Below, in pieces: positions 733 through 27,133 of a stretch of 61,167 nt of DNA. Every line of letters begins with the position of its first letter. Within the stretch, counting starts at the first letter, position 1. The stretch comes from Candidatus Dependentiae bacterium (GTDB lineage: Bacteria; Babelota; Babeliae; Babelales; Vermiphilaceae). A program made the translations under genes and the position numbers. Location: contig JAGQHQ010000007.1 in assembly GCA_020431705.1 (NCBI GenBank), forward strand, positions 1 through 61,167. Reading direction: 5' to 3'. The notes below the pieces were generated by a model. The model searched no databases. It saw only the letters and a list, made by a program, of their open reading frames with translations, and was not told where the DNA came from.

Positions 733-999
733 ATGTCACTATTACTAAACAATATTCTTGCTCTATCTATAGGATTGTTCTCAGGTTTTTTATATGCTGT
801 ACTTTTTTTATTTCAAAAACGTACAACTATGATTGCATCAGTATTATTTACAAGTATTCGCTTGATAAGTTTATCCGCATTATGGTGGTATCTATTGCAG
901 CACACACAAATACCTCTTATACTGATGATATTATTTTTCTTACCAACATTTTGGGTAACTGTTTCTTGGTATAGGGGAATTGCATATGGAAGGTCTTGA
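733..999 (+). CDS. Small two- or three-helix membrane protein, AtpR-like ATP synthase accessory subunit
   Basis: An 88-residue hydrophobic protein directly upstream of ATP synthase subunit a, overlapping it by 14 bp. Helices lie at about residues 5-27, 33-54 and 60-78. Arginines at positions 30 and 43 sit at or within the second helix, in the pattern of AtpR from N-type ATPases, where a membrane Arg is thought to aid assembly of c subunits that carry two carboxylates. The c subunit here does have an extra Glu (E28) in its first hairpin, which supports the assignment. AtpI, the usual protein at this locus, is the alternative. No clear Shine-Dalgarno sequence precedes the ATG. Confidence 0.55.
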   Translation: MSLLLNNILALSIGLFSGFLYAVLFLFQKRTTMIASVLFTSIRLISLSALWWYLLQHTQIPLILMILFFLPTFWVTVSWYRGIAYGRS

Positions 1000-1729
1000 T
1001 ATCCTTTCCGTTCACAAGTTAAAGCCACTCGAATATTTTGGCATTAAGCATCATTTTTTTCATATTAATACAGATACAGTTGTATACACATGGATAGTAT
1101 TAGGCATTATTTTAGCATGCGTGTTACCAATCAGATGGTTATTACTGAAAAAAAACTCTATTATTTATCATGTGTTGACCACATATATCCGTTCATTTTA
1201 TGGCATGACGCAACAAACGTTGGGAGAATACTTCACTTTTGGTCATTTTGCATTTATTACTGCAATATTTACATTTATCGCAACGGCAAATGCAATAGGC
1301 GCAGTGCCATGGTTGGAGGAACCAACTAAAGATTTAAATACTACACTTTCTCTTGGACTTACCTCATTTTTGTATACACAATTTTATGCAATCAAAATGC
1401 ATGGTTTTTTGGCGTATATAAAAGAATATTTTGCGCCATTCTTTATCATGTTGCCACTTAATATTATTGGAAAAGTTGCTACTGTTATTTCAATATCATT
1501 TCGTTTATTTGGAAATATTTTTGGTGGTACCATGATTACTGGTATTTATACAAGCGCAATAAAGGGTTCATTAATTTTTGAAACTCTCGGTATGATTACC
1601 GGCCTCAATCTGGTTATCATACTCTTTTTTGGTTTGTTTGAAGCATTTTTACAAGCATTTGTATTTGCTATGCTTGCTCTTACGTATCTCTCTATTGGTA
1701 TCAAAGGTGAGGAACCTGAAGAAGATTAG
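986..1729 (+). CDS. atpB: F-type ATP synthase subunit a
   Basis: This is the stator channel subunit of the Fo membrane sector, through which ions enter and leave the c-ring. It is a polytopic protein of 248 residues, normal for the family. The fourth-helix signature FRLFGNIFGG carries the essential Arg facing the c-ring carboxylates, and the C-terminal helix LQAFVFAMLALTYLSIG carries the usual Gln. An earlier TTG at 980 is in frame, but ATG at 986 lies 8 nt after AGGGGA and is the better start. The gene overlaps the AtpR-like gene and is followed 26 bp later by the c subunit. No b, delta or F1 subunit genes occur in this window. Confidence 0.92.
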   Translation: MEGLDILSVHKLKPLEYFGIKHHFFHINTDTVVYTWIVLGIILACVLPIRWLLLKKNSIIYHVLTTYIRSFYGMTQQTLGEYFTFGHFAFITAIFTFIATANAIGAVPWLEEPTKDLNTTLSLGLTSFLYTQFYAIKMHGFLAYIKEYFAPFFIMLPLNIIGKVATVISISFRLFGNIFGGTMITGIYTSAIKGSLIFETLGMITGLNLVIILFFGLFEAFLQAFVFAMLALTYLSIGIKGEEPEED

Positions 1730-1755: not shown

Positions 1756-2727
1756 ATGGCAGAGCTTGCAGAATTACTGCATTATTTAACGGTTGCATTA
1801 GCAGTCGCAGTCAGCTCAATTGGAGCTGGAATCGGTGAGGGATTGGCAAGTCATGCCGCAATAAAAGCAATTAACAAACAACCTGGCGCGCGAAGTGATA
1901 TTTCCAAAACAATGATTTTGGGAACTGCACTCATTGAAACTGCCGCAATTATGGGATTACTTATTTCCGCAATTATGTTGTGGGGCTCAGAAAGCATTGA
2001 ACGTACCACATACACAGGTATTGCTACATTGGGCATTGCACTTGCTATTTGTATCTCTGGGTTTGTCATTGGTATTGTTTCTGCATTTCCTGCACAACAA
2101 GCATGTTTAGCAATTGCACGACAACCATTCTTTGCTCAAAAAATTGTTCGCTTTATGCTTATCACACAATCAATTATTCAAACACCAATTGTATTTAGTT
2201 TTATTATCGCGATGCTCATAAAAGCGCAACTTACAACTATTGATAGCCTTGCTGATAGTTTTCGGTTACTTGGTGCTGGTATATGTATTGGTTTTGGTAG
2301 CATTGGCCCTTCAATTGGTCTCGCACAGTTTGCACGAACGGCATGCTCTGGGCTTGGTATAAATCGCGATGCATACAACAAGTTGCTTCCTTTCACTTTT
2401 TTGAGTGAAGCAATTATTGAAACACCTATTATCTTTGCATTGGTTGTGTCTATTTTACTACTAGTTACCGGTATACCAAATGGGAATCTACTAGTTGGTA
2501 TCGCTATGCTTTTTGCTGGTTTTTGTACAGGATTTGGTACTATCGGCGCTGGTATTAGTTCCGGGAAAACATCTTCTGCCGCATGCCACCAAATTGCACT
2601 TGCTCCAGAAAAGTATTCATTACTTGCACGTGTAAGTATGTTTAGCCAAGGTTTGATTGATACATGTGCAATTTATGCATTGCTCATATCTTTACTTTTA
2701 ATTATCACTAGTCGTTATATGGTTTAA
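1756..2727 (+). CDS. atpE: ATP synthase subunit c, fused four-hairpin form
   Basis: This is the rotor subunit of Fo. Ordinary F-type c subunits are single hairpins of about 80 residues; this 323-residue protein contains four in tandem (about 10-76, 87-157, 167-237, 245-318), giving eight transmembrane helices. The carboxylate position in the second helix of each reads E61 (ALIETAA), Q142 (SIIQTPI), E222 (AIIETPI) and D302 (GLIDTCA), so the second hairpin lacks the ion-binding acid. A Thr follows each of these residues, as in Na+-binding c subunits. In hairpin 1, E28 (GAGIGEGLA) occupies the place of the Na+-liganding Gln, the two-carboxylate arrangement known in N-type ATPases. Multi-hairpin c subunits are known from V/A-type and a few F-type enzymes. 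Confidence 0.9.
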   Translation: MAELAELLHYLTVALAVAVSSIGAGIGEGLASHAAIKAINKQPGARSDISKTMILGTALIETAAIMGLLISAIMLWGSESIERTTYTGIATLGIALAICISGFVIGIVSAFPAQQACLAIARQPFFAQKIVRFMLITQSIIQTPIVFSFIIAMLIKAQLTTIDSLADSFRLLGAGICIGFGSIGPSIGLAQFARTACSGLGINRDAYNKLLPFTFLSEAIIETPIIFALVVSILLLVTGIPNGNLLVGIAMLFAGFCTGFGTIGAGISSGKTSSAACHQIALAPEKYSLLARVSMFSQGLIDTCAIYALLISLLLIITSRYMV

Positions 2728-2742
2728 AAAACATCTTGTAGT

Positions 2743-3936
2743 ATGAAGCATAAAAAAAAATTACACGTTTTGTATATCATCACCAAGTTAGAACTGGGTG
2801 GTGCACAAAAAGTATGTCTTAATCTGGCGAAAGGCTTAAAAAAGTTAGGACACGAACCACTATTGCTTTCTGGTCCAACTGGTCCACTAAAAGAGGAGGC
2901 AAAAACAATTTGCCAAACAATTTTTTTAAATGATCTGACACGAGAAATCAACTCATCATGTGTATTTTTTAAAGAATTCATTTGTTTTTTTACATTAGTT
3001 GGCACAATAAAAAAACTTAAAAAAAAATATCCTGATTTAATTATACATACACACAGCACAAAAGCTGGAATCCTTGGCCGATGGGCCGCCTTTTTTGCTA
3101 ATGTTAAAAAACGTATTCATACAGTGCATGGCTACGCATTCCATAAACACCAGCGTTGGTTTGTATGGCTACCCATTTATTTTTTGGAGTTGATTACAAG
3201 CTTTGTTACTACTCACTTTATATGCGTTTCTTCTGAAGATGTAAAAACAGGAATCAAACTATTTCCATACTTTACCCCTAAACATTCAATCATTCGCGCA
3301 GCAGTTGATCATAATACATTGTATATTCCTGCAACAAAAACCAATATTAATCCCGATACTGCACAAACATTTGTCTTTGGAACTATCTCTTGCTTTAAAC
3401 CACAAAAAAATCTAATTGATCTATTACGTGCTTTTGCATATGTATACCAAAAAGACAATCGTGCAAAACTAGAAATTATTGGCGATGGTGTGCAACGCAA
3501 ACACATAGAAATTTTCATCAAAACACACAACTTACATCAACAGATTATTCTTCATGGTTGGAAACAAAACATTACGCCCATTATGCTAACCTGGCATGCA
3601 TTTGTCCTCAGCTCTCTGTGGGAAGGATTACCATGTGCAGTAGTCGAAGCGCGCTTGCTTAAGTTACCGGTTCTTGCATATAACACTGGTGGGATCAAAG
3701 ATATTATTGAAAATGGCAAGAATGGTTTTTTATATCCACAAAAAAAGTGGAAACAACTTGCCAATGGCATGTTACAACTTATGAATAATAAAAAATTATA
3801 CTCAAAATTATACTACAATAAAGACAATTTAATTCAATTTGACACTGATGTCATGATACAAGAACATATACAATTATATCAAACAGGTTATATAAGAATA
3901 GATACCCTTACAGATAAAAAAAGGAATAATGTATGA
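2743..3936 (+). CDS. GT4-family glycosyltransferase
   Basis: A GT-B fold retaining glycosyltransferase of 397 residues, probably building a surface polysaccharide or glycolipid on the cytoplasmic face of the membrane. The N-terminal Rossmann domain begins LYIITKLELGGAQKV, typical of group 1 transferases. The nucleotide-sugar domain carries the EX7E-type motif WEGLPCAVVEA and then YNTGGIKDIIENGKNGFL. A hydrophobic stretch near residues 145-160 may contact the membrane. The donor and acceptor sugars cannot be told from sequence. It starts 15 bp after the c-subunit gene, and its stop overlaps the next gene's start in an ATGA arrangement, so these genes may be co-transcribed. Confidence 0.85.
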   Translation: MKHKKKLHVLYIITKLELGGAQKVCLNLAKGLKKLGHEPLLLSGPTGPLKEEAKTICQTIFLNDLTREINSSCVFFKEFICFFTLVGTIKKLKKKYPDLIIHTHSTKAGILGRWAAFFANVKKRIHTVHGYAFHKHQRWFVWLPIYFLELITSFVTTHFICVSSEDVKTGIKLFPYFTPKHSIIRAAVDHNTLYIPATKTNINPDTAQTFVFGTISCFKPQKNLIDLLRAFAYVYQKDNRAKLEIIGDGVQRKHIEIFIKTHNLHQQIILHGWKQNITPIMLTWHAFVLSSLWEGLPCAVVEARLLKLPVLAYNTGGIKDIIENGKNGFLYPQKKWKQLANGMLQLMNNKKLYSKLYYNKDNLIQFDTDVMIQEHIQLYQTGYIRIDTLTDKKRNNV

Positions 3937-6083
3937 AAGTAGTTAGTACAAAAAAATGGTTATCAGTCATATGTATAATATTATGCGGAATAAGTTTTAT
4001 TCTTACGCTACTCTTCACGTATTCATACTGGAAAACACAATCAGCAATTTTGCACTTTACTCGACAAGAAGCACACGAAAAAACCGAGCAAGCAGCAAAA
4101 CACTTGGATAGTTTTATTAATATACTACAAGTAATGGTTACTACGCTCACAAAAAAACTTGAGAAAAACAATATTAAAAAAAGCACAATTATTGAACAAT
4201 TGCGAGAAAAACCAGTAGAAGTTACCGGGTTTGGAGTCGCCTTCACATCTCAAGATAGTGATGAAAAAAAATCTCATTACGTTGTAGAATATGAAGATAA
4301 ACAACAACTTATACAACTAGAAAAATCTCACTTCGCTCAAGCTACAAAAGACGGAAAATATGATTATACACAAGAAATATGGTATAAAAAAGCACTAAAA
4401 GGACAATCCGGTTTCTTGGGGCCAATTAATGATCCGGTTACCAAACAACCGGTCATTTTTTTTTACAAACCATTTTTTAATGGTGATATCATTGCTGGTG
4501 TTGTATTTGCAACACAATCGGTTGCTCACCTTAAACACGTACTTTCAACATTATATCTTGGGCAAGCTGGCTATTGGATTGTAACAGACAAAGATGGCAC
4601 AGTACTTATTCATCCAACAACCAGTTTAATACAGACTAAAGAAAATATAATTAACAAGACACATATGCAACAGAATAATGCGATAATAACTCTTTTGTCC
4701 AAAGATGAAAATAGAACAAGAAGTGTTTTATACAAAAATCCTAAAACTAACAATGATGCCTGGCTTTCAGTTGCAGAAACATCCACAACACCTTTAAAAA
4801 TCATATCAGTTTTTGATATCTATCAAGTTTTTGTAAATAATGATTTTGTTCGCCACCAATTGATTCACATTGTTCTGGCACTTTTGTGCGCGTTTCTGTT
4901 TTGTATAGCTTTTTTCATTTCTCGATCACAACTTAATGTGTCACTTTTGTGGACTTTTTCTGCCGTAACAGCGATCATACTTGCGTTAACCGTTGGCACA
5001 CTATGGGCAATCACTGCTGCATATCCTGATTACAAAGAAAACATAGTACCTGTGTACAACAAGATTAGTCTATATCAATTTTTAGACAAAATAACTAACG
5101 CAAAACAAGATATCATCCCTGCAGAACCCTCACAAAGCTTAGACTATTATTTGCGCTATCGATACAAAAAGGGAAAATACATACCAACAGGATTACTGAT
5201 TCACGATATTGATTTTATTTCTAAAGATCAAATTGCATTTGTTGGTATTGTATGGCAGCGCTATTTTGACGGAATTCATGACGATATTTCTCGTGGTTTT
5301 ATTTTTCAACAACTTTCTGGTAAACCAGACATTGTCGAGTTAAGCAGAACAAAAGAGGGTAAACGAGAAACAATTGTATGGTTAGTACACGCAAAATTAA
5401 ATCAAGTTATGACGTATTACAATTTTCCATTTGACGTAAAAGATTTACACATACAACTTTCTCACAAAGATTTTGATAAAAATATTATTCTCGTTCCAGA
5501 CTTAGATGCATACGCTATTCTAAATGCTGCAGCACTGCCAGGTATAAGTAGCGATGCACATTTAAGTGGCTGGCAACTGAGTGGTAGCTATTTTGGTTAC
5601 AAAATTGTTGATTATCAATCTAATTTTGGAATGTACGCATACGGCCCATTTGGCATAACTAATCAAGTTGATAAGTCTCAAGTACCAGAATTACACTTTG
5701 CTATTGCCGCTAAACGAAATTTATTTGAAACACTGACTACACATGTTATTGTCCTGCTCGCTATTGCTTTTTTATTATTTGTTCTTTTTTTAACCTATCA
5801 AAAACACGATGTTGGAGGCGCATTTACTACAATACTTTTTAGCACCATTGTTGCACAACGTTATTTTAAATCACATATCCCATCAGACGAATTTGTATAC
5901 TTTGAGTGGTTTCATTTTATTATGTATATCGCAATTGTATTTGTTATGACCGTTGTACTATTAGATTTTTTCAAATTCAATTTTTGGTTCATTCAATATA
6001 AAAAAAATGTAATCAGCCTAATCCTTTATTGGCCATGTCTGCTAATGGGAATTTTATTAGTTTCCATTATATACCTTTACTAG
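3933..6083 (+). CDS. Cache-domain sensor fused to a pentameric ligand-gated ion channel (pLGIC)-like domain
   Basis: A 716-residue membrane protein. After a first helix (about 12-30) comes an extracytoplasmic double-Cache-like region (about 40-300, with GFLGPINDPVT and the GYWIVTDKDGTVLIHP strand pair). Two helices follow (about 311-330 and 339-361). The second half reads as a pLGIC: an extracellular beta domain (about 375-592) carries FPFDVKDLHIQL at 498-509, the counterpart of the YPFDSQTLHIYL signature in GLIC, then LSGWQLS (GLIC: LTGWDIE) and four C-terminal helices (about 601-621, 629-645, 660-681, 692-715). The topology is consistent: both Cache and channel ectodomains and the C-terminus lie outside. 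Function as a ligand-gated ion channel is inferred. Translation is coupled to the upstream gene by a 4-bp overlap. Confidence 0.72.
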   Translation: MKVVSTKKWLSVICIILCGISFILTLLFTYSYWKTQSAILHFTRQEAHEKTEQAAKHLDSFINILQVMVTTLTKKLEKNNIKKSTIIEQLREKPVEVTGFGVAFTSQDSDEKKSHYVVEYEDKQQLIQLEKSHFAQATKDGKYDYTQEIWYKKALKGQSGFLGPINDPVTKQPVIFFYKPFFNGDIIAGVVFATQSVAHLKHVLSTLYLGQAGYWIVTDKDGTVLIHPTTSLIQTKENIINKTHMQQNNAIITLLSKDENRTRSVLYKNPKTNNDAWLSVAETSTTPLKIISVFDIYQVFVNNDFVRHQLIHIVLALLCAFLFCIAFFISRSQLNVSLLWTFSAVTAIILALTVGTLWAITAAYPDYKENIVPVYNKISLYQFLDKITNAKQDIIPAEPSQSLDYYLRYRYKKGKYIPTGLLIHDIDFISKDQIAFVGIVWQRYFDGIHDDISRGFIFQQLSGKPDIVELSRTKEGKRETIVWLVHAKLNQVMTYYNFPFDVKDLHIQLSHKDFDKNIILVPDLDAYAILNAAALPGISSDAHLSGWQLSGSYFGYKIVDYQSNFGMYAYGPFGITNQVDKSQVPELHFAIAAKRNLFETLTTHVIVLLAIAFLLFVLFLTYQKHDVGGAFTTILFSTIVAQRYFKSHIPSDEFVYFEWFHFIMYIAIVFVMTVVLLDFFKFNFWFIQYKKNVISLILYWPCLLMGILLVSIIYLY

Positions 6084-6184
6084 ATTCTATTTACAGACTG
6101 TTATCTACAACATGACAAATCATGTACTTTACGTTATATTTCCAGCCATATAAAAAAATCTTTACTCAGCACTAATGGAGAATG

Positions 6185-7096
6185 ATGTTGTATAAAAAAT
6201 TAACCGATGCAATTGGCAATACACCATTGGTAAAAGTTCCCTTTGATTGTCTTGGAAATTGCTATGCAAAACTTGAGTATTTAAATCCTGGTGGAAGCGT
6301 AAAAGATCGTTCTGCATGCTATATGATCGAACAAGCAGAAAAAAATGGTATCCTAAACTCCGGCGGCGTTATTATTGACGCCTCTTCCGGCAATCATGGT
6401 ATTGCAGTAGCCATGATTGGCGCAATTAAAGGCTACGAGGTTATTATTACAGTATCAGAAAAAATCAGCAAAGAAAAATTAGATACTATCAAGGCATATG
6501 GTGCAAAAATTATTATGTGCCCAGCAACAGAGTTTATTGATGATCCGCAAAGTTATCACTCTCAAGCAGTAGCTTTACACAAAAAAACACCTGGATCGTT
6601 TATGCCAAATCAATATTATAATCCCACCAATAGAGATGGGCACTATCATTCACTTGGCACAGAAATATGGCAACAGACTAACGGTACAATTACCCACTTT
6701 TTTGCAGCAGCAGGTACAACTGGTACAGTAAGTGGTGTTGGCAGGTATTTAAAAGAAAAAAATACTGATATCAAAGTATTTGCTATTGATTCTATTAATT
6801 CGTATCGCGCAACTGGTGGCTTTCCTAAACCATACAAAATTGAAGGTATGGGAATGGATTTTGATACACCCGTCTTTGATGAAAGTATTGTTGATGACAT
6901 CATCTGTGTGAGTGATAATAATGCACTTACAATGCTTAAACTACTTGCACAAAAATATGGATTACTTGTCGGTCCAAGCAGTGGTGCAGTTGCATATGTA
7001 GTTGATCAATACGCAAAAAACTTACAACCAAATGATTTAGCTGTTATGATTTTTGGTGATTCTGGAAGAGCATATTTGACTAAACGTTTTTATTAA
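6185..7096 (+). CDS. PLP-dependent cysteine synthase family protein
   Basis: A fold-type II PLP enzyme of 303 residues, close to O-acetylserine sulfhydrylase and the cystathionine beta-synthase core. Visible motifs are the N-terminal GNTPLVKV, the PLP lysine in GGSVKDR (K40), the substrate loop ASSGNHG, the phosphate-binding loop GTTGTVSG and the C-terminal GPSSGA. Of two adjacent ATGs, the one at 6185 has the better spacing from GGAG. No serine acetyltransferase gene is nearby, so whether it makes cysteine or uses another beta-substituted substrate is open. A gap of about 100 bp separates it from the Cache-channel gene. Confidence 0.85.
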   Translation: MLYKKLTDAIGNTPLVKVPFDCLGNCYAKLEYLNPGGSVKDRSACYMIEQAEKNGILNSGGVIIDASSGNHGIAVAMIGAIKGYEVIITVSEKISKEKLDTIKAYGAKIIMCPATEFIDDPQSYHSQAVALHKKTPGSFMPNQYYNPTNRDGHYHSLGTEIWQQTNGTITHFFAAAGTTGTVSGVGRYLKEKNTDIKVFAIDSINSYRATGGFPKPYKIEGMGMDFDTPVFDESIVDDIICVSDNNALTMLKLLAQKYGLLVGPSSGAVAYVVDQYAKNLQPNDLAVMIFGDSGRAYLTKRFY

Positions 7097-21498: not shown

Positions 21499-22564
21499 TA
21501 ACGCCATTGCATTTGTTGGCGGTAAATCTGGTGGCCATATTATACCAGCTCTTACTCTTGCTCAACAAGAAGTAAAAAATAATAAAACCACCCATATTTT
21601 ATTTTTTTCTACCTCAAGTGCATTGGATAAAAAAATCATTAGCACAAGCGCTATTGCTCCCACGCATATTCCACTACCAATAACGCCAGTTAACGTTAAA
21701 AACCCTCTACAACTTATCTGGTGTTGTTTGTCATTTATTCTGGCATTTTTCAAAAGCCTATATCATTTGAAAAAATTTCGTGCACAGCGAGTAATAAGTA
21801 TGGGTGGTCTTGTTTCATTACCTGTTTGCTTTGCTGCAAAATTATTACGTATTCCTATCAGTATTTATGAGCTTAACGCTGTACCTGGTAAGGCTGTTAC
21901 CTTACTTGCAAAAACTGGTGCCGATATTTATACATGTTTCAAAAAAACAGCACAATTTTTTCCAAAAAATAAATGTCTTTTTTCTGCCTATCCAATTCGT
22001 TATTCAGCAAATACCTTAAAAATAGGTAAACAAAAAGCACTTAAAGAAATCGGTTTATCCCCGAACAAACCAACTATTTTGATTTTGGGTGGCTCACAGG
22101 GTTCAATTTTTATCAATACCCTAATAAAACAGTGGATTGTCTCACAACCAGAACAAGTAAAAAATGTCCAAATTATTCATCAAACAGGATCATATGATAC
22201 AACTGATTGGAATATTTTTTATGCCACACATGGCATCTCTGCCCATTCATTTACTTATCAGGATAATTTAGGTATATACTACCAAGCAGCCGATATAATA
22301 ATATGCCGCTCTGGGGCAGGCACTCTTTTTGAGAGCATCTTTTTCAAAAAGTTTATTATTACAATACCACTACAATCATCAGCAACAACAAATCACCAAG
22401 TTGATAATGCTAACGCCTTTAAAAAGCAATATCCTCACCTTATATGGGTTATGAACCAAAAAATGTTAAAAAAATTCCCTGAAGAGCTTTTTGGGGTGTT
22501 AAACTCTCTGCTAGACATTCAATATGCCTCACACACCACACAAAAAAATAAAAAGACTTTTTAA
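21452..22564 (+). CDS. murG: UDP-N-acetylglucosamine transferase MurG
   Basis: GT28 enzyme that adds GlcNAc to lipid I to form lipid II on the inner face of the membrane. The N-terminal loop is GGKSGGHIIPALTLAQ; the usual GGTGGH carries Lys-Ser here. Further family features are ISMGGLVSLPVCFAA, YELNAVPGKA, LGGSQGS, and the donor-site segments IICRSGAGTLFES and ATTNHQVDNANAF. I chose the second ATG (21452); the first, at 21425, lies deeper in the TPR gene. The last 4 bp overlap the convergent gene. With UppS, GlmU and PBP1A it supports peptidoglycan synthesis. Confidence 0.88.
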   Translation: MKKIKYTKSLSAGKNNNAIAFVGGKSGGHIIPALTLAQQEVKNNKTTHILFFSTSSALDKKIISTSAIAPTHIPLPITPVNVKNPLQLIWCCLSFILAFFKSLYHLKKFRAQRVISMGGLVSLPVCFAAKLLRIPISIYELNAVPGKAVTLLAKTGADIYTCFKKTAQFFPKNKCLFSAYPIRYSANTLKIGKQKALKEIGLSPNKPTILILGGSQGSIFINTLIKQWIVSQPEQVKNVQIIHQTGSYDTTDWNIFYATHGISAHSFTYQDNLGIYYQAADIIICRSGAGTLFESIFFKKFIITIPLQSSATTNHQVDNANAFKKQYPHLIWVMNQKMLKKFPEELFGVLNSLLDIQYASHTTQKNKKTF

Positions 22565-23835
22565 AATAAGTAACTTAATAGGCAGTAATGTTTTACAATT
22601 TTAAGTAAAATAGTACCACCTATTATTATTGGCTGAACCCACCAATATTTTGTAAATAATTCTTTCCATTGTGTACCCGAATCTGTATCTTGTTTGATAA
22701 ACGTTTCATTCATTGCCGCACTAACAACATCAATGGCTGTTAAAATTTCTTCTATAGGTAATGAGTCTATTTCTTGATACAAAGCAAAAATCTGTGATAT
22801 CGTTGCACTACGAGCCTTTTCCGGATATTGCTGCGTATAATTAACAAATGCATTTTTTTGTGCGATAAAAAAAGCAATCAACATCTGACGAAAAAGTTCA
22901 TTATTTTCGATAAACTTAAAGTGCTTTACTTCTTTACACAAAATCCTTATTGGTCTAATATCACCAGTTTCTTCTGTTTTTTTAATTGCTGAAGCTACAT
23001 GCGCTTGCGAAAAACAAATCGTACCATCAAATATATTTTTTGAAACACCCCCTCCTGTAGGCACATATTTAAGACAGCTAATCCCTTTTTTTTCCAATTT
23101 TTTAAGTAGCGTAAATGATTCTTTAAGCCGCTTGACATAATAATATCGCGTGCCCACTTCTTCAGTAACAACATGTGGTTTGATATCTGCAAGCTCACCT
23201 TTCGGTGTAATAAATTCCGTACATCTTCTGATAATACCATCTAAAAATTCATCGCAACATTCATAATAGCCAGCCAAATAGCTAGTCATATCACAAACAA
23301 GATCGATTAAAAATTCCGGAGGTAAAAAAAACACCCGGCTTAAACTATCAGCAAGCACACGAAACTTTACCTTGTTTCTTTTATTTTCAAATAATTTTTC
23401 TAAAAACGTATTTTTAGTTATTACAAAAATTTCTTTGGTAAAATCAACTACCAGTAATTCATCCTCTATAGATTTATACGAAGCAAAATCATCCCATACC
23501 ATAAAAAGAGGCTTGAGACTCTTCATTTTGAATATTTGATACACCGACGATCTAATACGCTCATGAGAAAAAAGCATTTCAACTCCACCAGCCTTAGCAA
23601 CATCTTTATAAAAAAAGGAATCAATATTGAGCGTTAATTTTTTAATTTTTGCTAATAGTTTCATTGTCTTAGAAAGTCGAGTAACAAAATAATAACGCCT
23701 TTTTACCATACTTGTTAGCCTTGTAATAGGAACATGCAAAGAATAATTGCGTGCACAAAAAAGCGTGTTCTGAACAGAAACACCAAGGCTTAATACTATA
23801 CCAACACACAGCGCCTTTCTCACTATATTGTTCAT
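22561..23835 (-). CDS. Exported two-unit repeat protein, member A of a four-gene tandem family
   Basis: Unknown family. This 424-residue protein has an N-terminal signal sequence and a C-terminal hydrophobic segment (about 400-424). Two related units of about 150-180 residues are visible: the first runs from RRYYFVTRLSKTMKLL to SLKPLFMVWDDFASYKSIEDELL, the second from TRYYYVKRLKESFTLLKKL to DIRPIRILCKEVKHFKFIENNELF. The same unit pattern recurs in the next three upstream genes. Its ATG lies 3 bp after the stop of member B, so the four genes probably form one transcript. The units are all-helical by appearance, with no catalytic motif. Confidence 0.7.
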   Translation of the reverse strand: MNNIVRKALCVGIVLSLGVSVQNTLFCARNYSLHVPITRLTSMVKRRYYFVTRLSKTMKLLAKIKKLTLNIDSFFYKDVAKAGGVEMLFSHERIRSSVYQIFKMKSLKPLFMVWDDFASYKSIEDELLVVDFTKEIFVITKNTFLEKLFENKRNKVKFRVLADSLSRVFFLPPEFLIDLVCDMTSYLAGYYECCDEFLDGIIRRCTEFITPKGELADIKPHVVTEEVGTRYYYVKRLKESFTLLKKLEKKGISCLKYVPTGGGVSKNIFDGTICFSQAHVASAIKKTEETGDIRPIRILCKEVKHFKFIENNELFRQMLIAFFIAQKNAFVNYTQQYPEKARSATISQIFALYQEIDSLPIEEILTAIDVVSAAMNETFIKQDTDSGTQWKELFTKYWWVQPIIIGGTILLKIVKHYCLLSYLF

Positions 23836-23838
23836 TAC

Positions 23839-24864
23839 TTAGCTCACTACTATTTTGCTTAATATCCAATCATACAAACGCACATACCAAGATATAGACT
23901 TTTCTATTTCTTTAACAATAACCAAAAAATGGTACGTTGCGCCATCAATTGCATCCAATAATTCCTCTGTATCATACTGATCCATATGCTTATATAAATC
24001 CATAACGTAATGCATTTGATATGCAAGTTTTTTCTTTTGCTTGGCTGTTGAAACATTACTCACAATCAAATTTTTATACGCTCCGATAAGCATTATCATG
24101 CTATCTTTTAAAAACAAATCATTACCAATATAACGATAATGAACACACTCATTCCATACCCGCAGTATTGGCTTAACACTTCCCGTTTGTACAACTTCAT
24201 TAAGCACTTCTTCCATTTTTTTATCACTAATAAATGAAAAAACTTTATTCCATTCAACATCGAGCACCACATCCATCATCTGCTTTGGTTGTACAGGACA
24301 AATAAGCATTTTTTTGTCTACATATGCCAGCAACTCAAATGCATTTTTTAAGCGTTTAATCGCATAAAATCGTGCTACAATAAGGTCTGTTGGTACTTCA
24401 TCAAAAGATAACACGTTCAGAGATAAGTCCTTTGCTTTATTTTTATTCAAATGCGTATCTATGACATTCAATATATATTCCATTGAATAATGACAGGGTA
24501 AGACAGCTTTTCTTTCTGATTTATTGACTATTTTTTGCAAAAGCTTTAACACTCCTTTTGCTACATCAAGCTCATAATCTTTATCTTGAATCATTTGATA
24601 TGCAGCAAGAACCTTCCATTTTTCTAGCAATACAGCAACTTCATTTTTTATATCAACAAAAAAATCGTTTTTCTCCTGTTTAATTATGCTAATGGCTTCT
24701 TTTAATCGCGCAATCAAATAATATCTGTAGTGTACTGCTTGAATGAAAGAAGATATGCTTTCATTCTGTTTTTGATAATCCTCGGTTGCATCTAAATATG
24801 CATAAAAATTAATTATACAAACTAAAAAAGCTACCTGTACGGCCAAATGCTTGATTATTTTCAC
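23839..24864 (-). CDS. Exported two-unit repeat protein, member B
   Basis: Unknown family; 341 residues with a signal sequence. Unit one starts YRYYLIARLKEAISII and reaches LLEKWKVLAAYQMIQDKDYE; it is the most diverged of the eight units. Unit two runs from VARFYAIKRLKNAFELLAYV to SVKPILRVWNECVHYRYIGNDLFLKD and ends with MDQYDTEELLDAIDGATYHF, matching SLPIEEILTAIDVVSAAM in member A. The GTG start has AAAGGGC 8 nt upstream. Confidence 0.68.
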   Translation of the reverse strand: MKIIKHLAVQVAFLVCIINFYAYLDATEDYQKQNESISSFIQAVHYRYYLIARLKEAISIIKQEKNDFFVDIKNEVAVLLEKWKVLAAYQMIQDKDYELDVAKGVLKLLQKIVNKSERKAVLPCHYSMEYILNVIDTHLNKNKAKDLSLNVLSFDEVPTDLIVARFYAIKRLKNAFELLAYVDKKMLICPVQPKQMMDVVLDVEWNKVFSFISDKKMEEVLNEVVQTGSVKPILRVWNECVHYRYIGNDLFLKDSMIMLIGAYKNLIVSNVSTAKQKKKLAYQMHYVMDLYKHMDQYDTEELLDAIDGATYHFLVIVKEIEKSISWYVRLYDWILSKIVVS

Positions 24865-24879
24865 TACATTAAGCCCTTT

Positions 24880-26031
24880 TCATTTTTTTCTAAAAAAATG
24901 CACCACAAAATTCTTGACATAATGCCACCAATTATTTTGCTGCTGAATAACAATTTTTTTTAAATATGTACCTGCGTAATCTATGCCCTGCAATAAGTCA
25001 AAAGTAGAAAGTGAATTTATTTTTTTGTATATTTCTTCAATTTTTTGTACTGTATCATAATCAGACTGACTTCGTGCATAATAATTTAATAAATATTTTT
25101 CTAGTATAAAAACTAAAATCAAAAATTCCTTTTGAAAAAGTTCATTTTTAATAAATCTATACTGCTTAGTCATGTGCCAATAATAAAAAAACGGCTTTAT
25201 ACCACCTTCAATATTAATTTCCATTACAGCCTGATTAATTTGATAACTTTTAAATACAATATCAACTTCAAGCAAAGATCCATCTCCAATAGAATAGTTG
25301 CCCATCTTTTCAAACTGACGAAAAAGATCTACAATCCATTCAATACGCTCAATAACATAAAAACGCATCACAATATCATTACTATAAATACGGAAAACGA
25401 CATCAGATAACTCTGCTCTTTGCCAATACGCCTGCAAATAATCTGTCAGATTAGTATAAAACTGTGATTCTATAAGCGTGCTTGCTACATGATCTATTAC
25501 TTCCACCAGGCACTCTGCAGGTAAATAAAAAATTGCATCTGCAAACATGAGATCTTCACACACTTTGTCCAAAGAAAGAGATTTGGCAACACCGTGTATA
25601 AGTAACGTATGAGCAATGAGAAAAATCTCTTTGGTAAATTCTTCTATAAAAATTTCATCATCAATCGATTTATATGAAAAAAATTCGTCCCAAACCATCA
25701 GAAGCGGTTTTAAGTTGCCAATACGCTCTATTTCTTCCAAAGAAGTGCGAACAGCATCACATCGCCACTCCAAACTATCTGAATATGCTCGATGAAAAAT
25801 AACATTCAATTGATCAGAACTCACTTTCATATTTAAAAGCATTTGTATTGGTTTCTTAAGACGCTCAATGAAATAAAATCTTCTATTGATAAGATTACTA
25901 AATAGATGTATTTGTTTAATCGATACAAGCATATCAGAAGATATAGTAGTAATTTCTTCTTTATTGATAGCAAGAATTAACCCCGGCAAAAAAATAATTC
26001 CAAACCATATAAACCTGTTAAAATAATACAT
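24880..26031 (-). CDS. Exported two-unit repeat protein, member C
   Basis: Unknown family; 383 residues. The frame extends upstream into member D, but ATG at 26031 begins a proper signal peptide, has AAGGGA 10 nt upstream, and follows the stop of D directly. Unit one: RRFYFIERLKKPIQMLL to NLKPLLMVWDEFFSYKSIDDEIF. Unit two: MRFYVIERIEWIVDLFRQF to GIKPFFYYWHMTKQYRFIKNELF. The C-terminal STFDLLQGIDYAGTYLKKI corresponds to the same element in A and B. Confidence 0.68.
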   Translation of the reverse strand: MYYFNRFIWFGIIFLPGLILAINKEEITTISSDMLVSIKQIHLFSNLINRRFYFIERLKKPIQMLLNMKVSSDQLNVIFHRAYSDSLEWRCDAVRTSLEEIERIGNLKPLLMVWDEFFSYKSIDDEIFIEEFTKEIFLIAHTLLIHGVAKSLSLDKVCEDLMFADAIFYLPAECLVEVIDHVASTLIESQFYTNLTDYLQAYWQRAELSDVVFRIYSNDIVMRFYVIERIEWIVDLFRQFEKMGNYSIGDGSLLEVDIVFKSYQINQAVMEINIEGGIKPFFYYWHMTKQYRFIKNELFQKEFLILVFILEKYLLNYYARSQSDYDTVQKIEEIYKKINSLSTFDLLQGIDYAGTYLKKIVIQQQNNWWHYVKNFVVHFFRKK

Positions 26032-26032
26032 A

Positions 26033-27133
26033 CTAATGGCATCCCTTAACATACTTATTCTTTTTCCACCATGAAACAAGCTTCTGATACCAAGGCTCCG
26101 TTGCTTTCAAATGTTCGATTACCAATGCAAGATTAGCTTGCGCTTCGTTAAGATCATTCATCACTTGTTCCGTAGATAACAAATGCACAGCATTATTCAT
26201 ATATAATTCCGAAAACAACCCCTCTTGTGCAAACTGAGTGGGACTCTGCTTCATTTGATTACTCAAAACAAAGCTTTGACAAATAAAAATTGTCAGTATA
26301 ACAACTTGCTTAACTAGAACCTCATCTGAAATATAACGATAATGCTGAAGATATTTCCACAGCAAGAGCAAAGGCTTTATAGATTTTTTGATAAATATCT
26401 GATCGATAAGACAGCGGATACGGTAATGAGTAAATACATCTTTGAGCTGTGAAGCACTAATCACTGATCTATCGTTTGCAGTAATTGGTAGAAACGCTAG
26501 ACGACTTTCATAGGCTGTAGCAAGTAATTTAAACACTTTATCAAATCTTTTTAGCTGATAAAAACGCATTAAAATTACATCATAATCAATCACAGAAAGA
26601 TCTTTTGCTATATCAGTAACGTCTTGTTGATAAAGACCAAAAGGCATTTTTCTTTGTCCTTTTTTTTGACCCATAACTTCCACTATATAATCAATCAAAT
26701 ATATTTGTTCTGCCAATGACAAAGCTGTATCTCTCTTATAATTAATCGCAACAGTATCATCCTTAAAATACCCCATACATTCGGCTAAGTTACACAAGGT
26801 ATCACAAGATTTCTTTATAAATTGCAAAACAAACATTTTATCTTCAAGAAACTTGAATGAACGTATGTCATCCCATAGGCTCATTAAATCATCTATGCTA
26901 TGATTCCAAAAATAAGACGGAACAGTATCTAAAGTAAGCGGTATTTGCTGAAAACGGGCAATAAAATAGCCTCGCTTAACTATAAGTTCAACTAACGGAG
27001 AAATAAGCAAGTGCTCTATATCAACTTTTTGCTCTTTACTCAATCTTGAGTAGTTGTTCAACTTCTCTTTACCAAATAAGGTTAATATATGTATCAAGAA
27101 ACAGCACCACAATGGAACACCATACCATCGCAT
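26033..27133 (-). CDS. Exported two-unit repeat protein, member D (first gene of the cluster)
   Basis: Unknown family; 366 residues with a signal sequence (core about 6-20). Unit one: KRGYFIARFQQIPLTLD to LMSLWDDIRSFKFLEDKMF. Unit two: LMRFYQLKRFDKVFKLL to SIKPLLLLWKYLQHYRYISDEVL. The end, LSTEQVMNDLNEAQANLALV, is again the shared C-terminal element. AAGGGA lies just before the ATG. As the first gene of the four it should carry the promoter of the cluster, in the 123 bp shared with the divergent flavoprotein gene. Confidence 0.68.
   Translation of the reverse strand: MRWYGVPLWCCFLIHILTLFGKEKLNNYSRLSKEQKVDIEHLLISPLVELIVKRGYFIARFQQIPLTLDTVPSYFWNHSIDDLMSLWDDIRSFKFLEDKMFVLQFIKKSCDTLCNLAECMGYFKDDTVAINYKRDTALSLAEQIYLIDYIVEVMGQKKGQRKMPFGLYQQDVTDIAKDLSVIDYDVILMRFYQLKRFDKVFKLLATAYESRLAFLPITANDRSVISASQLKDVFTHYRIRCLIDQIFIKKSIKPLLLLWKYLQHYRYISDEVLVKQVVILTIFICQSFVLSNQMKQSPTQFAQEGLFSELYMNNAVHLLSTEQVMNDLNEAQANLALVIEHLKATEPWYQKLVSWWKKNKYVKGCH

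Follow-up and report, generated by a model that had tools for sequence, protein, structure and literature searches.

A double Cache sensor joined to a pentameric ligand-gated ion channel-type module in a Candidatus Dependentiae bacterium

The DNA analyzed here, referred to as the window, is the stretch of 61,167 nucleotides at positions 1 to 61,167 of contig JAGQHQ010000007.1 from Candidatus Dependentiae bacterium, an organism with a small genome (assembly GCA_020431705.1). Our subject is a gene in it that encodes a 716-residue protein in which a double Cache sensor precedes a module of the pentameric ligand-gated ion channel (pLGIC) type (Table 1). An earlier reading made from the letters alone (the sequence-only reading) had proposed such a fusion at 3933–6083, with motifs in the order seen in the bacterial channel GLIC. 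The open reading frame (ORF) and its ATG start proved exact, HMMER alignment of a family profile with GLIC recovered the motif order, and profile, profile-profile and model comparisons bear out the joining of a Cache sensor to a pLGIC-type module. The protein probably serves as a subunit in a pentameric ligand-gated channel belonging to the GLIC/Cys-loop superfamily, and so related to the neurotransmitter-receptor channels of animals, with the double Cache sensor placed in front.

A sensor half and a channel-type half

Seven membrane segments follow the order TM1-Cache-TM2-TM3-LBD-M1-M2-M3-M4, where TM is a transmembrane segment, LBD the ligand-binding domain and M1 to M4 the helices after it. 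Hydropathy identifies all but M2, whose polarity keeps it below the threshold here and which also falls short in three others of 34 rows; it was placed by alignment and model. The sequence-only reading was right about the four helices after the LBD but overlooked the two hydrophobic segments between Cache and LBD (TM2 and TM3), which both exceed the threshold in 33 of 34 full-length non-tandem rows; a linker of residues 355–414 separates TM3 from the LBD. The distribution of charges, with three basic and no acidic residues before TM1, the same numbers around the M3-M4 loop, two acidic and no basic residues in the M2-M3 loop and a neutral M1-M2 loop, agrees with an N-terminus on the inside. Characteristic motifs occur at residues 498–501 (FPFD), 544–550 (LSGWQLS) and 651–654 (SDEF), and a loose FPFD-type pattern fitting the Pro-loop is found only once in the 122,330 six-frame residues of the window.

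Table 1. Features of the sensor-channel gene and its neighbors, in window coordinates
Feature	Position	Strand	Basis
ATP synthase subunit a	980..1729	+	Pfam; syntenic context
ATP synthase c-type proteolipid, four repeats	1756..2727	+	Pfam; syntenic context
Group-1 glycosyltransferase, 4-base overlap with channel gene	2743..3936	+	Pfam; context, not part of the receptor
CDS, 716 aa, dCache - TM hairpin - pLGIC core	3933..6083	+	ATG start; exact ORF, Pfam, profile matches
TM1, residues 10-28	3960..4016	+	Hydropathy
Double Cache sensor, residues about 40-300	4050..4832	+	Pfam: MCP-like_PDC_1 86-193, dCache_1 138-290
TM2, residues 311-329	4863..4919	+	Hydropathy
TM3, residues 336-354, short turn after TM2	4938..4994	+	Hydropathy
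pLGIC ligand-binding domain (LBD), residues 415-595	5175..5717	+	Profile, profile-profile, model
Pro-loop (Cys-loop equivalent) FPFDVKDLHIQL, residues 498-509	5424..5459	+	HMMER alignment to GLIC
M1, residues 602-620	5736..5792	+	Hydropathy and model
M2 pore helix, residues 628-648	5814..5876	+	Alignment and low-confidence helix in model
Codon of K646 (M2 19')	5868..5870	+	M2 alignment
M3, residues 662-680	5916..5972	+	Hydropathy and model
M4, residues 695-713	6015..6071	+	Hydropathy and model
PLP-dependent enzyme (Pfam PALP; cysteine synthase kind by eye)	6182..7096	+	Pfam; syntenic context

The Cache-like sensor predicted for the first half is confirmed by Pfam, where MCP-like_PDC_1 scores 28.0 bits against a cut-off of 27, and by matches to dCache structures: the whole protein finds 13 PDB sequences to E 10, all through this half, the best being the PctB sensor (E 9.5e-5). 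Among 34 full-length relatives, 30 match dCache_1 at E<=0.01. The dCache_1 chemoreceptors PctA, PctB and PctC, which are among the best PDB matches, differ in their output, which is chemotaxis signaling rather than a channel.

Since Pfam is silent on the second half, a family profile (A1) was built from 32 relatives. Searched against the PDB with HMMER, it aligns its positions 78–331 with GLIC residues 80–314 (E 2.3e-10, 43 bits), and GLIC molecule names stand on all of the best 60 of 121 matches. A profile of the LBD with no membrane helix (A6) still returns GLIC-named chains as the best 60 of 97 matches to E 10, with a top E of 5e-4, so that hydrophobic bias is excluded as the cause. Compared by hhalign with an alignment of 24 classic prokaryotic pLGIC ORFs of ~350 residues (A4), A1 reaches 99.7% probability (E 1.4e-26, 253 columns), a result that is partly circular because A4 was drawn from weak A1 matches; the LBD alone gives 99.1% and the helices alone 93.2% against the classic pLGICs. 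Two observations stand outside this circularity, namely the match of A4 itself to GLIC in the PDB (E 2.3e-35) and the Pfam match of one classic member (L102), which passes the Neur_chan_LBD cut-off with 28.2 bits (cut-off 26).

The low-confidence AlphaFold model of the core (residues 406–716, three sequences, no template) contains the four helices M1-M4. All 50 matches listed when it was submitted to Foldseek are pLGICs or chimeras of pLGICs (best E 6.7e-12), the GLIC rows among them at 12–16% identity. VIA-align superposes the core on GLIC with Z 15.3 over 189 residues at 4.9 Å, and the extracellular part with Z of about 14.3–14.7 over 149–160 residues at 3.0–3.7 Å. The sequence-only reading would have been refuted by a predicted structure of residues 375–592 other than the pLGIC beta sandwich, an outcome that the model does not bear out. 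At the level of single residues, Pro-loop P499 is invariant over the 34 full-length members, and D501 and the pre-M1 residue R595 are kept in at least 90%.

A chance or hydrophobicity-driven likeness to pLGICs deserves practically no weight in the light of these data. What speaks for it is the silence of domain models: Pfam Neur_chan matches neither the protein nor any of the 32 cores, and PF02931 finds nothing in the bacterium's own genome and 101 genomes of its phylum. The latter result is uninformative, since all control genomes were silent too, and as only one of the eight classic members tried passes Neur_chan_LBD, its absence here reflects a limit of the Pfam model rather than a defining biological feature. 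The LBD-only, profile-profile and model searches agree with one another and refute the explanation. A scan of the protein against NCBIfam gave a single sub-threshold kinase match. Residues of about 415–716 are homologous to pLGICs, and show these features of the pLGIC/Cys-loop group: an LBD homologous to theirs, the Pro-loop proline and aspartate, a basic residue before M1 and four helices.

A family with stackable sensors and binding-protein partners

The gene is intact and has relatives in many genera. With the 716-residue protein as query, 35 of 181 genomes (its own included) match at E<=0.001, some through the Cache half only. The A1 profile finds matches in 43 of 101 genomes of the bacterium's own phylum, 28 of them strong (E below 1e-70) and 15 weak; nine of the weak genomes hold classic-type ORFs, one a cut fragment (G077), and the remaining five were not read. 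Outside this phylum, at least 25 of 395 genomes match in the phylum of a Bacteroidales genome, at least 15 strongly (lower bounds, as scoring was limited to five candidates in each genome), and 27 of 244, 13 strongly, in the phylum of G146. The copy in G146 itself (L078) is interrupted, with about 1.3 kb separating M1 from M2, and that in G157 (L079) has one stop in frame, in the Cache half judging by how the ORF is split. Plasmids of Vibrio sp. THAF191d and Acaryochloris marina also carry the gene, which is annotated as a hypothetical protein in the latter; the gene table of the Vibrio record has three features only. A search of viral contigs and phages yielded no relative. In a tree of 64 family and 8 classic rows, from which one fragment row of 65 had been removed, the two sets separate with support of 98/98.

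The joining of a Cache to a pLGIC has a precedent. In 2005 Tasneem et al. reported bacterial pLGICs (ART-LGICs) bearing Cache and MCP-N domains, from Methanosarcina, Cytophaga and Microbulbifer, the added domains lying after the signal peptide and ahead of the LBD; their account also covers PBP-I fusions and operons in which PBP-II or Cache is encoded by a separate gene (PMC549065). Likened by description, through a Cache-type sensor N-terminal to the LBD and four helices, the 716-residue protein probably belongs to the same class. The available portion of that text mentions neither a TM hairpin, a tandem Cache, a basic residue at pore position 19' nor the present phylum, and no binding-protein gene tied to a tandem-Cache channel (PMC549065). 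Relative to that portion, what is added here is the hairpin topology, the tandem Cache, the linked binding protein, the basic 19' residue and the presence of the family in 28 of 101 genomes of a phylum in which none of the 101 has an MCP signaling domain. Since the Vibrio plasmid copy (L194) has the identical seven-segment layout, the hairpin may be common to all channels of the 2005 class.

Sensor domains are found on other channels of this superfamily as well. DeCLIC shares an accessory N-terminal periplasmic domain (NTD). In the part of the text at hand its lobes are likened to regulatory domains found elsewhere among prokaryotic proteins, some of them calcium-binding, and neither Cache nor a membrane hairpin is mentioned (PMC12664993). 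According to the same 2025 source, again in part, DeCLIC is the only pLGIC with a partly characterized NTD (PMC12664993), and available sections of a 2016 phylogeny regard the fused-domain associations of bacterial pLGICs as evidenced at the genome level only (PMC4795631). Two classic pLGICs fused to PBP-I domains (L128, L129; Peripla_BP_6) likewise join a sensor to the channel but have no TM pair between sensor and LBD. A literature search found nothing pairing Dependentiae with a ligand-gated ion channel, or the phrase "pentameric ligand-gated ion channel" with "Cache domain", and among the papers listed the one on this channel branch was that of 2005.

Within the family, a unit of Cache plus TM hairpin is used zero, one or two times per channel. 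Cache-less members are L023, L024, L026, L028, L070 and L072, and tandem members of about 1000 residues run TM1-CacheA-TM-TM-CacheB-TM-TM-LBD-M1-M4 (L022). A 1074-residue frame in G271, labeled 2x in the tree, was rejected as a tandem Cache because its upstream part is a stop-free frame, and tandem forms are accordingly claimed for the bacterium's own phylum only.

The tandem form goes together with a partner gene. All seven tandem-Cache channels with readable flanks (L141, L142, L155-L159) have a periplasmic binding-protein (PBP-I) gene on the same strand directly upstream, overlapping or at most 13 bases away, compared with none of 23 single- or no-Cache channel loci of the phylum matching the PBP-I model; several of the compared loci stop at contig ends, and G009:C52:362-2286, G009:C24 and G039:C24, which were read without wide flanks, lie outside the 23. 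Peripla_BP_5 is over its cut-off at all seven places, and the five upstream proteins scanned by Pfam score 141–448 bits, the value of 141 belonging to a partial sequence. The seven channels form one supported tree group (99/95), which argues for a single conserved linkage and not seven inventions. Seen from the side of the binding protein, 7 of the 11 strong Peripla_BP_5 places in the phylum adjoin tandem-Cache channels; of the other four, two lie beside stand-alone dCache genes, one beside a Cache gene cut by the contig and one at a contig end. The seven do not include a copy in G097, where the Cache gene after the binding protein is truncated by the end of the contig, nor do the 23 include G590, a genome of another phylum in which a single-Cache channel is preceded at ~1 kb by a weak binding-protein match (23 bits).

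What looks like a split version of the receptor occurs in G026 and G028 (L164, L165, L185, L186): a separate dCache gene with two TM segments comes after the binding-protein gene, and the channel, encoded elsewhere, is Cache-less. Directly upstream of the Cache-less channel of G028 lies a second dCache gene; the like-placed 450-residue gene of G026 has no Pfam match. G026 additionally encodes two giant proteins of 2317 and 2381 residues (G026:C5, L180, 1525-8475 and 8584-15726), each with several weak PBP-I matches, and in G044 a 622-residue calcineurin-like phosphoesterase (47 bits; L148, 9775-11640, minus strand) is encoded upstream of a Cache-less family channel.

These arrangements, in which relatives use two Caches and a binding protein or no Cache at all, suggest that the Cache is an interchangeable input and the channel a fixed output. 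As to what it binds, the dCache_1AA amino-acid motif of PctA comprises R126, W128, Y129, Y144 and D173, where, in the part of the source available, R126 grips the ligand carboxyl group and the D173 position touches amines (PMC10104139). The corresponding residues of the 716-residue protein are E148, W150, Y151, I165 and T194. The motif is not kept, R126, Y144 and D173 all being replaced, and amino-acid sensing through it was dropped as a candidate; an aspartate at the D173 position occurs in 4 of 34 family members.

Loss of most of this motif, together with the existence of Cache-less members with the same core, could be taken to mean that the Cache is a mere spacer or anchor and that gating takes place in the channel's own LBD, for instance by protons as in GLIC. 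We regard this as unlikely, given that most of the 65 members, drawn from three genome groups, retain an N-terminal part of Cache size, that the Cache is duplicated where a binding protein adjoins and that separate dCache genes occur where the channel is Cache-less.

Pore residues and the proposed receptor

Residues of M2 were counted over 65 family rows of at least 190 bits, some of them N-terminally cut, after removal of rows with identical last 200 residues; the M1-M2 loop aligns with gaps, which makes inner positions less certain than 19'. At 19' the family has arginine in 57 rows and lysine in 2, among the latter the 716-residue protein (K646), compared with aspartate or glutamate in 13 and lysine or arginine in 2 of the 24 classic sequences. 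A basic residue at 0' occurs in 19/24 classic but 1/65 family sequences, which have V, I or A there in 47/65, and an acidic residue at -2' in 15/24 against 2/65. Any acidic residue from -4' to 0' is present in 19/24 classic and 22/65 family members, the 716-residue protein having an aspartate at -1'. Small residues at 2' and 6', phenylalanine at 9' (45/65) and hydrophobic residues at 0' and 1' complete the family pattern.

GLIC remains the best PDB match by sequence and model, sharing LBD fold, Pro-loop and helix order, but has glutamate at 19' (a mutant E19'P is named in the structure listing) where the family has arginine or lysine. It is also not known to have an N-terminal sensor or a TM hairpin. 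Animal anion channels often have arginine at 19', and a preference of the pore for anions is a reasonable guess, no more; a simple anion reading is weakened by the acidic residue at 20' in 21 of 65 members, which could counteract the basic 19'.

Several results weigh against a conducting pLGIC with a double Cache sensor. The classic-pore signature of an acidic -2' and R0' is mostly absent from the family, and GLIC-like conduction cannot for this reason be assumed. A profile of the four helices alone (A7) finds no GLIC match in the PDB by HMMER. Confidence in the core model is low (mean pLDDT 57.7, pTM 0.49), the packing of M1-M4 in it is not defined and whole-core TM-scores are 0.32–0.49 among the Foldseek matches listed; the full-length model, likewise from three sequences, is poor (pLDDT 46.5). 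On the sensor side, dCache_1 reaches 37.4 bits (E 2.6e-9), short of the Pfam cut-off of 45.

These pore changes could be read as the mark of a pLGIC-fold receptor that no longer conducts, in which a conformational change of LBD and helices is relayed to a second membrane protein docked, perhaps, on the extra membrane helices. This possibility appears rather improbable to us: small residues at 2' and 6', F9' and a basic 19' in 59/65 form the pattern of a selected pore and not of drift, and the clustered neighbors listed include no partner gene common to the genome groups. For the channel subunit proposed at the outset, a homopentamer gated by a ligand at the Cache is most likely, with assembly, conduction and ligand inferred. 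Five subunits would assemble, and a small solute would bind the periplasmic Cache domain, the movement of which could be passed through the TM2-TM3 hairpin and linker 355–414 to the pLGIC domain. The M2 pore would then open or close, turning a chemical signal into ion flux across the inner membrane. The nutrient or host-metabolite sensor gating an ion pore that the sequence-only reading proposed is to this extent a putative function.

What such a flux might serve was considered by Tasneem et al., who, in the portion available, proposed a role in chemotaxis with ion flux regulating swimming (PMC549065). Cache domains are indeed typical of chemoreceptors, but a search for the MCPsignal domain was positive in 0 of 101 genomes of the bacterium's phylum and in 7 of 14 control genomes, so the 2005 proposal lacks support in this phylum; no search was made for flagella. 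We consider a motility chemoreceptor very improbable here and have dropped the chemotaxis reading. Tentatively, and with the balance of chances tilted against it, a more elaborate picture may be drawn of a modular receptor in which stackable units of Cache and transmembrane hairpin drive a channel of the neurotransmitter-receptor type, with a periplasmic binding protein dedicated to loading the tandem form. The outer pore position, mostly acidic in its prokaryotic relatives, would have become basic, so that anions may pass. Such a receptor would convert periplasmic solute levels directly to membrane potential in cells without chemoreceptor signaling domains.

The role of sensor domains fused to bacterial pLGICs has been a standing question since 2005. 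The present family offers a series, with no Cache, one, two plus a binding protein, or split genes, in which to study the gating of a channel by a solute sensor, and the series sits in genomes lacking MCP signaling domains, where the chemotaxis proposal does not fit. The basic 19' residue in turn supplies a concrete prediction on ion selectivity.

Gene neighborhood and a second pLGIC

Coupling to a glycosyltransferase gene, which the sequence-only reading had noted together with ATPase membrane subunit genes upstream, is confirmed: the stop codon of the glycosyltransferase overlaps the channel start as ATGA, and Pfam identifies the a and c subunits. Relatives of the neighbors recur in the loci (7–16 kb) of 12 other genomes of the same family, the c subunit in 12, the a subunit in 10, the PLP enzyme in 9 and the glycosyltransferase in 8. 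The search of 17 channel loci elsewhere in the phylum recovered no relative of any of them, and the neighborhood therefore says little on function.

The same genome encodes a second pLGIC, of the classic type (348 residues; G000:C4, L174, 2609-3652, plus strand). A few bases after it follows a gene for a 760-residue protein (3663-5942, plus strand) with a calcineurin-like phosphoesterase half (Pfam Metallophos, 35.0 bits) and a PBP-I half (Peripla_BP_6, 124 bits). Genes for proteins of 722–773 residues with a PBP-I half adjoin classic pLGICs in 8 other genomes scanned, and Metallophos is over its cut-off in 4 of the 10 such proteins scanned. The classic pLGIC and the phosphoesterase/PBP-I protein may constitute a two-gene partnership, one of which no earlier description was met, though no literature search was aimed at it.

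Two further observations concern the window. Across the four repeats of the c-type proteolipid the putative ion-site residues are E61, Q142, E222 and D302, and one hairpin thus seems to be without a carboxylate. On the minus strand at 22561-27133, four adjacent ORFs of 424, 341, 399 and 366 residues look alike by eye and perhaps form a tandem family.

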